Position numbers and translations under genes: made by a program. A DNA stretch of 64,000 nt from Pseudotabrizicola sediminis (lineage in GTDB: Bacteria > Pseudomonadota > Alphaproteobacteria > Rhodobacterales > Rhodobacteraceae): assembly GCF_004745575.1 (NCBI RefSeq), contig NZ_RPEM01000003.1, positions 62,001 to 126,000 on the forward strand, in the 5' to 3' direction. Within the stretch, counting starts at the first letter, position 1, and every line of letters starts with the position of its first letter. Of the stretch, positions 21,877 to 25,001 are shown in pieces. The notes beneath the pieces were generated by a model. That model did no database searches and was not told the DNA's origin. It was given only the letters and a program-made list of their open reading frames with translations.

Positions 21877-22026
21877 GTGCCGGATCTGCGCGATCCCCTT
21901 ATCATGATCCCCCCGCGCTTTGCCATCACCGCCGCCGCATGGTCGGCACTGGCCCATCGCATCGGGCGCGGCATGCAGATCGCGGTGCACGACCGCGACA
22001 GCGCAGGCCCGCCCAGTCTGGGTTAG
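21877..22026 (+). CDS. Possible small protein or gene remnant
   Basis: A 49-codon open frame from GTG 21877 (or 40 codons from ATG 21904) with strongly G/C third positions, as in real genes here. The sequence ends AHRIGRGMQIAVHDRDSAGP and has no recognised family. Its last bases overlap the stop of the LuxR-type gene on the other strand. No good ribosome binding site is visible. It could be a real short protein, the remnant of a longer one, or chance. Confidence 0.25.
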   Translation: MPDLRDPLIMIPPRFAITAAAWSALAHRIGRGMQIAVHDRDSAGPPSLG

Positions 22027-22544
22027 GCAGCGTCCAGCGGCTGCTTGACCGGACGCACCGCCCCATCATCTCGCATCAGGTCTTCGATGAACAGGCTCAG
22101 CAGCTGTGAACGCCCGGTCACGCCGGCCTTGCGGTAGATCGCGTTGGTCTGCGCCTTGATCGTCCCCTCACTGGTGCCGCGCAGCGCCGAGATGTCGGCG
22201 GTCGACAAGCCCTTGATCGAAAACAGCGCAACATCGCGCTCGGCCGGGGTCAGGGACCATTCGTCGAACCGCTCGTTCAGCAAATCCATGAAGGCACCCG
22301 AAGCCCGACGCAGCCGCTCTTGCGCCTGATTGCGCTCTTGCAGGGTGCGGCGCAACAGCAGCCCGCCCAACCCGAGGCCCAGAAGCAGCCCCGCTGCCGC
22401 GCCAAGCTCCATCAACTCGCGCACTTTCCAGGCGACGGGGCCGCTGAAAAGCCCGACATAAGACGACAGGATATCGGCCACGACAAAAATCGCGCAAAGC
22501 GCCTGAATCAGCAGAACCGCAATGATGGCGCCCTGCCGTCCCAA
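22023..22544 (-). CDS. Membrane-anchored LuxR-type HTH regulator
   Basis: A 173-residue protein with two N-terminal membrane segments (about 6-28 and 46-64), a charged coiled linker (RRTLQERNQAQERLRRASGA, 65-84), and a LuxR/GerE helix-turn-helix (about 97-152) with SLTPAERDVALFSIKGLSTA and GTIKAQTNAIYRKAGV. There is no receiver or ligand domain, so any signal must come from the membrane or the short periplasmic loop (about 29-45). It is the last gene after the two poly-Asp protein genes, 28 bases downstream of the nearer one, and probably shares their transcript. Confidence 0.85.
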   Translation of the reverse strand: MGRQGAIIAVLLIQALCAIFVVADILSSYVGLFSGPVAWKVRELMELGAAAGLLLGLGLGGLLLRRTLQERNQAQERLRRASGAFMDLLNERFDEWSLTPAERDVALFSIKGLSTADISALRGTSEGTIKAQTNAIYRKAGVTGRSQLLSLFIEDLMRDDGAVRPVKQPLDAA

Positions 22545-22572
22545 TACTCAGGCCGCCAGTGTCTGACCGGAA

Positions 22573-22971
22573 CTAGTCATCATCGTCATCCCCATCGTCG
22601 TCGTCATCATCGTCGTCATCGTCATCGTCGTCGTCGTCGAGATCACCTGCTCCACCACCGGACTGTCCTGTGCCGCCACCACCGCCCCCCCGGTCATCCA
22701 CGAGGTCTGCACCGCCCGAGCGGCCGTCTGCCGCAATCCAGAGGTCACGCAGGATTTCGCCGGTCTTGGGGTTCAGGACAACCTCGCGCAAGCCGCCGCC
22801 CCGGGTCGCCGTGATCCTGGTTCGGCCCAGCAGTGTTCTTGCAACGACAATGTTGCGATAGCCCTGGCGTCGCAACTGCCGGACCACCTTATCCGAAAAC
22901 CCCGAGGCAAACGCAGGCAGGGCCGCTGCCAACCCGCCTGCCATCGTCAGAATGAACGCCCGCCGCTTCAT
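22573..22971 (-). CDS. Exported PepSY-like protein with poly-Asp tail (second)
   Basis: A 132-residue protein with a signal peptide (1-23, MKRRAFILTMAGGLAAALPA). Its globular part (about 25-80) matches its neighbour at 23070: GYRNIVVART, RITATRGGGLREVVLNPKTG, EILRD. That pattern resembles PepSY-type domains. A Gly-rich linker (95-109) leads to a C-terminal run of about 15 Asp, one Gly, then five Asp. Such an acidic tail could bind Ca2+ or other cations in the periplasm; this is inference. Its DNA is a GAC/GAT trinucleotide tract that may change length. Confidence 0.75.
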   Translation of the reverse strand: MKRRAFILTMAGGLAAALPAFASGFSDKVVRQLRRQGYRNIVVARTLLGRTRITATRGGGLREVVLNPKTGEILRDLWIAADGRSGGADLVDDRGGGGGGTGQSGGGAGDLDDDDDDDDDDDDDDDGDDDDD

Positions 22972-23069
22972 GATGTGGTCCCGACCGCAAGGGTGCGGCA
23001 TCTTTTATCCGTCAAATGCTGCGGCCCGGCAAGGCCGGACCGCAGCTGCCCCTCTGCTCCGTCGGGGGA

Positions 23070-23543
23070 TCAGTCGTCATCCCCATCATCATCGTCGCCG
23101 TCGTCATCGTCATCGTCGCCGTCGTCATCATCATCGTCGTCGTCATCATCGTCATCATCGTCTTCATCATCCCGGTCATCATCCCGGTCGTCGTCGCGGT
23201 CGTCGTCGCGGTCGTCATCCCAGTCATCATCATTGCTCTGCCCGCCCCGGACAAAGTCCCGATCACGGTCTTCAACACGGACTCCGGTTCGCGTGGAGGG
23301 ACGCTCAAGCCGGTCCCGGTCACGCTTCAGTACGGCCCCGGTGGAAATGTCATAGACGACCTCGATCTTTTCAGTGCGGCTCGTCGCCTCGACCTTGATC
23401 TGGGTCGGGCCACGCTTGACCTCGATCCGGGAATAGCCGGCCGCCTGATACTTCGAAATCAGCGCGTCAGAAGTGACCGCCCCATGGGCGATGCTGCCAG
23501 CGACGGCAATCGCTGCGGCAAGCAGTATCAGTCTTTTCTTCAT
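23070..23543 (-). CDS. Exported PepSY-like protein with Asp/Arg-rich tail (first)
   Basis: A 157-residue protein with a signal peptide (1-22, MKKRLILLAAAIAVAGSIAH). The globular section (24-73) parallels the second protein: GYSRIEVKRG, KVEATSRTEKIEVVYDISTG, AVLKRD. A basic/acidic linker (RDRDRLERPSTRTGVRVEDR) is followed by four DDDR units (about 109-124) and an almost pure Asp tail broken by single Glu and Gly residues. The ribosome binding site AAAGGA precedes ATG 23543. First gene of the likely three-gene operon. The function is unknown; cation binding or envelope sensing is suggested by composition. Confidence 0.75.
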   Translation of the reverse strand: MKKRLILLAAAIAVAGSIAHGAVTSDALISKYQAAGYSRIEVKRGPTQIKVEATSRTEKIEVVYDISTGAVLKRDRDRLERPSTRTGVRVEDRDRDFVRGGQSNDDDWDDDRDDDRDDDRDDDRDDEDDDDDDDDDDDDDDGDDDDDDGDDDDGDDD

Positions 23544-23671
23544 GATCTGTCCTTTCAAAAACCTGAAGGGGTGCCGCCCTTGTGGGGACGACACCCCGGT
23601 TCTGTCGGCATTTTCCGCATCACACCATTGGCCGCAGGTTTATTTGAAAGGGTCTGGTCCGCCGGTTTAGC

Positions 23672-23693
23672 GGCATAAGCCTGAGTTTATGCC
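23672..23693. promoter_or_regulatory. Dyad upstream of the poly-Asp operon
   Basis: GGCATAA (23672-23678) and TTATGCC (23687-23693) form a 7-bp inverted repeat with an 8-base spacer, about 130 bases before the first poly-Asp gene. It could be the operator of that operon. The adjacent LuxR-type protein is a candidate ligand. Confidence 0.35.
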
Positions 23694-23713
23694 CTTGCCA
23701 CCCTCCGGACAGC

Positions 23714-23742
23714 AAAAAGCCCCGGCGCATCTGCGCCGGGGC
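23714..23742 (-). terminator. Intrinsic terminator of trpB
   Basis: On the minus strand an 11-bp perfect stem (GCCCCGGCGCA, loop GA) is followed directly by TTTTT. It lies 27 bases after the trpB stop and separates trpB from the poly-Asp operon on the same strand. Confidence 0.9.
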
Positions 23743-23768
23743 CCGGGGGCCGCGTGCAATCACGCGCC

Positions 23769-25001
23769 TCAGATCTTCATGTCAAAGCCCAGATGCTTGG
23801 CCACGGTAAAGATGTCCTTGTCGCCCCGGCCACACATGTTCATCACGATGATATGGTCCGCAGGCAAGCCGGGCGCGATCTTCATCACATGTGCCAGCGC
23901 GTGGCTTGGTTCCAGCGCCGGAATGATCCCCTCCAGCGCGCAGGACAGCTGGAACGCCTCCAGCGCCTCCATATCCGTGATGCTCACATATTTCGCCCGG
24001 CCCACATCATGCAGCCAGGCATGTTCCGGCCCGATGCCGGGATAATCAAGGCCCGCACTGATGCTGAACCCTTCCAGAATCTGCCCGTCCTCATCCTGCA
24101 ACAGATAGGTGCGGTTTCCGTGCAGCACGCCGGGGCGCCCTCCGGTCAGGCTGGCGCAATGCTCCATCCGGTCGTCCACGCCCTTGCCGCCTGCTTCCAC
24201 CCCGATGATCCCGACCGTCGGGTCATCCAGGAACGGATAGAACAGCCCCATCGCATTCGACCCGCCGCCGATGGCCGCGATCACGGTGTCGGGCAGGCGC
24301 CCTTCACCCTCCTGCTCGGCCAGCTGCCAGCGCACTTCCTTGCCGATGATGCTTTGGAAATCGCGCACCATCGCCGGGTATGGGTGCGGCCCCGCCACCG
24401 TGCCGATGCAATAGAACGTGTCGCGCACATTGGTCACCCAGTCCCGCAAGGCATCGTTCATCGCATCCTTCAGCGTGCCACGACCGGATGTCACCGGCAC
24501 CACCTCGGCCCCCAGCAGACGCATGCGGAACACGTTGGGCGCCTGACGCTCCACATCATGCGCGCCCATGTAGACCACGCATTTCAGCCCGAACTTGGCA
24601 CAGACCGTCGCCGTCGCCACCCCATGCTGCCCGGCACCCGTTTCCGCGATGATCCGGGTCTTGCCCATGCGCCGCGCCAGAATGATCTGCCCCAGCACAT
24701 TGTTGATCTTGTGCGCGCCGGTGTGGTTCAGCTCGTCACGCTTCATGTAGATCTTGGCACCGCCCAGATGCTTCGTCATCCGTTCCGCATAATACAGCGG
24801 CGACGGGCGGCCCACGTAATGCGTCCACAGATCTTCCATCTCGGCCCAGAAATCCGGATCGGTCTTGGCGAACTCATAGCGCTCTTCCAGCTCAAGGATC
24901 AGCGGCATCAGCGTTTCCGACACAAAGCGCCCGCCAAAGATGCCAAAGCGCCCGGCCTCATCCGGCCCGGTCATAAAGCTGTTGATTCCGTCCTCGGCCA
25001 T
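23769..25001 (-). CDS. trpB: Tryptophan synthase beta subunit
   Basis: A 410-residue PLP enzyme that joins indole and serine into tryptophan. The PLP lysine is Lys98 in [11 protein letters not shown]. The phosphate-binding loop [11 protein letters not shown] and the catalytic Glu region ([17 protein letters not shown]) are intact. It starts [10 protein letters not shown]; an ATG three codons upstream (25010) is less likely. trpF lies about 1.1 kb upstream on the same strand but is separated by an opposite-strand gene, so trpB has its own promoter. Confidence 0.97.

Follow-up and report, generated by a model that had tools for sequence, protein, structure and literature searches.

It is only recently that secreted PepSY proteins were shown to regulate histidine kinases from the periplasm. 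According to the accessible part of PMC12714742, DbfQ of Vibrio cholerae, a secreted PepSY protein of 135 residues encoded upstream of dbfRS, controls the kinase DbfS as its periplasmic partner, and the DbfQRS promoter follows the pathway output, which is termed suggestive of positive autoregulation. In the same text, the Pseudomonas aeruginosa BqsRS system is accompanied by two PepSY proteins, PA2658 and PA2659, the former predicted to bind BqsS, and the screen of gene neighbourhoods was confined to kinases and response regulators. Further, UipA (PMC8963506) and LanP (PMC11845868) are metal-binding PepSY proteins (uranium, lanthanides).

The locus described here lies in the window, that is, the whole 64,000-nucleotide stretch of Pseudotabrizicola sediminis DNA that was analysed, and codes for P1 and P2, two PepSY-like exported proteins whose tails are rich in Asp, and for a LuxR-type regulator (REG). 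Similar to DbfQRS and BqsRS as presented in the accessible text of PMC12714742, small secreted PepSY genes stand just upstream of a membrane sensor, two of them as in Pseudomonas. In contrast to the histidine kinase and response regulator of DbfQRS described there, the window has a single membrane-tethered LuxR protein and no kinase, and its module carries Asp-rich tails and a putative operator of its own. UipA and LanP likewise belong to the PepSY family and are extracytoplasmic, but in the accessible text of the two papers (PMC8963506, PMC11845868) they have tandem PepSY domains, with acidic metal sites in the folded domains and not in a polyaspartate tail, and no LuxR partner is mentioned for them.

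The window module would be a one-component counterpart of DbfQRS, made up of PepSY protein, membrane hairpin, HTH and own operator, and hence a further form of PepSY-controlled signalling, not a categorically new system. One-component regulators of the ToxR/CadC type are membrane-tethered and have a single membrane segment, a winged-helix domain at the N-terminus and a domain in the periplasm; REG shares this tethered principle but has a C-terminal GerE domain and two segments. The membrane-spanning LuxR regulators of Eggerthella lenta (PMC9734109) share with REG a LuxR-type DNA-binding domain on membrane segments. Regulators of this kind have many such segments and are not known to have a PepSY partner. 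Among 5.39 million open-access papers, PepSY and LuxR were found together in PMC3377617 alone, which in its accessible part concerns iron limitation in Pseudomonas fluorescens; no paper combined PepSY, LuxR and Rhodobacter, and no PepSY paper was among the 20 matches listed, out of 2,384, for PepSY with Rhodobacterales names. As far as these searches of the open literature show, the module is apparently undescribed. Its recurrent pairing of PepSY proteins with a kinase-free membrane-tethered LuxR protein extends the principle to one-component regulators, in a small testable system of three genes, one promoter and a predicted operator.

The whole P1-P2-REG set spans 23543-22023 on the minus strand (Table 1), and a gap of 28 bases (22545-22572) separates the P2 stop from the REG start. 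A gene that we take to be trpB lies upstream, and since a terminator-like hairpin sits after it, 23716-23544 leaves the operon space for a promoter of its own; on the other strand, downstream, lie a presumed DUF2237-like gene and then, presumably, ileS. Judged by eye, the window neighbours of the operon (trpB and open reading frames) include neither a kinase nor a response regulator. No sigma-70 consensus promoter was found at the locus, and an Rfam scan of window positions 21900-24000 gave zero matches. A chance origin of the gene set was rejected, as the set recurs in Rhodobacterales.

Table 1. Features of the P1-P2-REG locus, in window positions.
Feature	Position	Strand	Evidence
P1, exported PepSY-like protein, Asp-rich tail, 157 aa	23070..23543	-	PepSY_2 14.3 bits; relatives' PepSY_2 matches; profile comparisons
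P2, exported PepSY-like protein, Asp-rich tail, 132 aa	22573..22971	-	Relatives' PepSY_2 matches; profile comparison with P1
REG, LuxR-type regulator, two N-terminal membrane segments, 173 aa, TTG start	22023..22544	-	Pfam GerE, alignment, hydropathy
O1, operator-like palindrome CATAAACTCAGGCTTATG	23674..23691	-	Dyad and matrix scans of upstream regions
O2, weaker second element, consensus YAAACC-N3-GG	23655..23669	-	Stacked upstream regions; window placement by hand count
O3, third element TAAACCTGCGGCCAAT	23627..23642	-	Stacked upstream regions; window placement by hand count
Terminator-like hairpin between trpB and the P1-P2-REG operon	23717..23744	-	

Both P1 and P2 open with what looks like a signal peptide, continue into a core of about 50-60 residues and finish in an Asp-rich tail. 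The PepSY_2 score of P1 is below the Pfam cut-off of 24.3 bits, and P2 has no PepSY or PepSY_2 match (PF03413, PF13670) at E≤1, so the two window proteins are termed PepSY-like. Among their relatives, PepSY_2 was matched at E≤0.05 by 22/32 of P1 (best 5.9e-6) and 7/40 of P2 (best 1.2e-4). In hhalign comparisons, the P1 family reached 98.4% with canonical short PepSY_2 proteins, and the P1 and P2 families reached 99.2% profile to profile over a stretch that excludes the tails. Judged by family-level homology, P1 and P2 belong to PepSY/PepSY_2, and the common core that the sequence-only reading saw in two neighbouring exported proteins is borne out. The P2 core follows the pattern TLLGRxRI...REVVLNPKTGEILRD, and a PDB sequence search with the P2 family returned four weak matches, none relevant. 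P1 signals look Sec-type; the P2 signal begins KRRAFI and is twin-arginine-like, as in 56/79 relatives by pattern match alone, and P2 may therefore be exported folded.

To follow the gene set across genomes, 84,980 species genomes were scanned, giving 434 REG relatives, the best 80 of which were kept for locus analysis. In 79 of these 80 loci, the start of a P2 homologue is no more than 1.2 kb upstream of REG; in the remaining one (L011), REG starts 228 bases from the stretch end, with an Asp-rich open frame alone before it. A separate upstream gene matching P1 (phmmer E<0.01) was present in 63/80, not 65, because in L071 and L073 the P1 match is the P2 gene itself, and in L050 and L079, which are without a P1 match, another acidic exported-looking frame was seen by eye upstream of P2. 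Among the 74 loci with at least 1.5 kb of upstream sequence, 59 carry two or more PepSY genes, 15 one and none zero. Cultured environmental strains with the operon include Tabrizicola aquatica RCRI19 (L034) and Gemmobacter straminiformis CAM-8 (L070).

Close relatives are mostly syntenic, with trpB upstream in 55/68 and a DUF2237-like gene downstream (its cluster seen in 73/80), and hence are not independent, so that distant homologues provide the stronger test of linkage. REG homologues were found in 90/149 genomes of the order; in the class sample, 10/190 genomes had one, 7 of them outside the window's family, and in the phylum sample 24/299, 13 of them outside it. A PepSY-type secreted gene lies within 1.5 kb upstream of 34/52 distinct, mostly distant REGs, or 33/51 when one close member (the first REG of L121) is left out, as counted with a short-PepSY profile whose 19 source proteins are among those it recovers; as an independent check on this profile, the short PepSY proteins of distant loci match PepSY_2 in 19/19 and align with the P1 family in hhalign. 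The other 18 had no PepSY gene within 1.5 kb, some flanks being short, nor had any of the ten REGs examined in the phylum-sample loci L215-L225 (flanks 1.5 kb), two of which have a cytochrome-like gene directly before REG. The sequence-only reading had made conserved linkage one of its tests, and linkage is what was found, both in the close loci and upstream of 34 of the 52 mostly distant REGs. Neighbourhood through conserved synteny alone, with no functional link, would explain the shared flanking genes of the close relatives, but is very improbable, as PepSY and REG recur together in other contexts and, across 149 genomes, operator and regulator tend to occur together (see below).

In the REG tree, a PepSY partner was recorded for 122 of 148 REGs, the window's REG being labelled by hand. 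Many distant REGs pair with a short PepSY_2 protein lacking the acid tail, often with a gene in between that, from its motif, we take to be cytochrome b561-like. A second branch of the REG family with this arrangement comprises L097, L099, L104, L123, L126, L130, L132, L137 and L141, and a presumably cytochrome c1-like gene stands further upstream in L131 and L141. A second same-strand REG copy occurs in 8/80 loci (L009, L012, L015, L017, L020, L028, L032 and L042), and seven of these copies form one clade with P2-like genes of their own. In L121 (G003), two REG paralogues lie tail to tail, each with a PepSY gene upstream, one Asp-tailed and one not. The P1-P2-REG unit is accessory within the genus, since a close REG (E below 1e-80) was found in 9/16 genomes, the window's included and several drafts being incomplete. 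Over 42 loci, correlations of pairwise protein distances were 0.52-0.75 among the three genes, against 0.17-0.23 between these and trpB (0.29-0.41 with gaps left out); this co-variation did not single out which of the PepSY cores would meet the hairpin, the bootstrap differences including zero.

The Asp-rich tails were then compared, with the boundary between core and tail drawn by simple patterns. The last 81 residues of P1 contain 48 Asp and 3 Glu, and the last 56 of P2 contain 25 Asp. In 57 P1 and 79 P2 relatives, respectively, the median net charge of the tail was -39 and -21, the Asp:Glu totals were 2175:313 and 1799:264, and the acid fraction ranged over 0.16-0.76 and 0.09-0.68. Eight genus-mates have tails with no fixed common sequence, and distant members retain PepSY and regulator with no acid tail. 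As charge is retained, sequences differ and distant members are tail-less, the tail is kept as an acidic, low-complexity property, not as a sequence, in most close members, and the wider family manages without it.

These tails could also be functionless products of drift or slippage, with the PepSY cores and REG alone mattering, an explanation that we consider unlikely though not negligible. It fits the window tail DNA, which is made of tandem repeats, the differences even among genus-mates, P2 acid fractions down to 0.09 and the tail-less distant members, but not the strong negative charge of most of the 57 P1 and 79 P2 relatives, retained although the sequence is not, or the use of both Asp codons in the window (27 GAC and 21 GAT in P1, 15 GAC and 10 GAT in P2). 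The bias for Asp over Glu is weak evidence, because changes between GAC and GAT are silent. Long Asp runs at both C-termini, as first described, are thus present in the window and usual among relatives, but they are variable and not the constant part of the system; the spread of acid fractions and the tail-less distant members count against the tails as its centre. If the tails bind cations, the ligand-binding part of the sensor would be a disordered polyanion.

Upstream of the operon, the palindrome TAAAC-N4-GTTTA was found by matrix scan in 70/74 relatives, the 6/80 loci with <1.5 kb upstream being left out, and in 0/75 downstream stretches; it was absent in 4 of the 74. In 54 upstream regions, taken from the window plus 53 of the 80 loci, the dyad TAAA-N6-TTTA was counted in 46 vs. 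0.1 in shuffles, and exact TAAAC-N4-GTTTA was present in 47/54 and one base off in two, the window among them. Twelve of the 65 P1-match loci did not enter this set: 7 with a weak or minus-strand best match or a match that is the P2 gene, 4 with no recognised core or start, and L005, with too little upstream sequence. The operator matrix was made from 49 of the 54 regions and found a site in 20/23 loci not used to build it. The O1 core, TAAACTCAGGCTTA, lies at 23676-23689, 146 bp before the P1 start codon, and is one base off the consensus. Two more elements, at fixed spacing about 20 and 47 bp on from O1, appeared when the 49 regions were stacked ungapped.

Consistently, the extended exact pattern occurred at 38 sites in 34 of 149 genomes; 30/38 are followed by a REG gene at a distance of 0.67-2.03 kb, counting REG matches down to E 1.4e-60, and an exact site was present in 33/58 genomes with a strong REG match vs. 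1/91 others. Among genus-mates, 7/8 have a good operator site, the one without being the close genus-mate L243. The 149-genome and genus-mate counts are not fully independent of the 54-region count, because the sets overlap in part (e.g., L058/G073 and L073/G122) and several genus-mates repeat listed loci. The window's own genome has no exact extended site, the operon site being one base off. In more distant loci, the changed half-site form TAAGC-N4-GCTTA was found in 6/24 short-PepSY upstream regions (absent in 18/24) and in none of the shuffles, and ten distant P2/P1-type upstream regions showed no clear common palindrome.

Because the palindrome is conserved upstream and the sites go with REG, REG very probably binds its own operon, O1 being its predicted operator. 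This operon is the best supported DNA target of REG and perhaps the main one; REG may have few other targets, since among the sites scored in the window's genome the operon site reached 26.0 and the next one 13.7. The search of that genome gave no sign of a wider regulon, with one-mismatch matches numbering 14, fewer than the 59 of a control pattern, and a longer pattern with three mismatches giving 21 matches per strand vs. 43 and 36 for the control. The second-best extended-operator match in the window's genome, CATAAGCCCAGATTTATG at G000:C12:215438-215455 (L232), has two mismatches, and a methyltransferase-like gene is not far off.

REG itself scored 27.8 bits against Pfam GerE (PF00196), above the gathering cut-off of 23.5, and has hydrophobic segments at about residues 6-22 and 47-63, in agreement with the initial description of a LuxR-type gene 28 bases after P2, carried on two membrane segments. 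An in-frame TGA stands two codons before its TTG, which is the first usual start codon beyond that stop and matches the start column of the relatives, and exactly two hydrophobic segments were counted by simple hydropathy in 144/148 homologues. The best NCBIfam match was the LIC13292 family (NF047608; residues 70-159, E 1.5e-16), with a score of 61 bits, below the cut-off of 200, and the N-terminal half unmatched. No kinase or receiver match was found in Pfam at E≤1, and a PDB sequence search gave one match, a response-regulator DNA-binding chain. In an alignment of 37 sequences, the membrane hairpin was near-invariant, with W39, E43 and E46 in 37/37 and D24, P36 and R42 in 36/37. The sequence-only reading, which gave the regulator no sensor domain of its own, misleads on this point, because these hairpin residues are as conserved as the HTH, and the hairpin may be the receptor.

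The hairpin could even be the receptor by itself, for a lipid, quinone, proton or redox cue, with P1 and P2 as regulated output that protects the envelope as polyanions and not as partners. The near-invariance of the hairpin, the redox theme suggested by the cytochrome b561-like gene often found between PepSY and REG in distant members, and the operon as best supported target would all suit such a receptor, which we nevertheless regard as doubtful: the PepSY-REG linkage persists despite altered tail, neighbours and operator, and, as the case of DbfQ demonstrates, a membrane sensor can be under the control of such PepSY proteins.

We regard it as reasonably probable that the locus is an autoregulated envelope-sensing module, in which a PepSY core contacts the REG hairpin and REG controls mainly its own operon. 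REG would sit in the inner membrane, its HTH on the cytoplasmic side and its short, conserved hairpin in the membrane and periplasm; P1 and P2 would be exported, and a PepSY core would touch the hairpin and set REG activity. P2 is the most likely contact, as it is the neighbouring and most constant partner. Ahead of P1, REG would bind O1 and probably also O2 and O3; by controlling mainly its own operon, it would close a feedback loop. By analogy with DbfQ, the PepSY protein is expected to hold the system off. The Asp tails would be a rapidly evolving polyanionic addition, whose most likely role is to bind cations or cationic molecules close to the membrane. Cations are a reasonable candidate signal, since PepSY proteins binding uranium and lanthanides are known, and envelope damage is an equally good candidate. 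Of the sensing system first proposed, the conserved unit stands, with its PepSY homology, its two-segment regulator and a conserved operator that accompanies the regulator, and exported proteins informing REG is the reading that best fits linkage, operator and precedent; the sensing itself, like operator binding by REG, the PepSY-REG contact, the regulatory sign and the signal, is what we infer. More tentatively, and with the balance leaning against it, the secreted PepSY proteins could be co-receptors of the two-segment LuxR regulator, in a new class of one-component signalling, and their Asp tails could in this branch gauge cations, be it Ca2+, lanthanides, other metals, polyamines or cationic peptides; titration of the tails would drive a homeostatic loop acting almost only on its own operon.

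Eight exact extended sites in the 149 genomes lie away from REG and count as leads only: five at one small gene, two before a reductase-like gene and one elsewhere. In detail, L192-L196, from five species of one genus, carry one and the same 16-base operator-like site where the small gene starts, a gene that looks L,D-transpeptidase-like. In L197 and L198 (G071 and G041, of one genus), a second exact site precedes a membrane reductase-like gene, presumably ferric-reductase-like, by about 110 bp and is a possible extra REG target.
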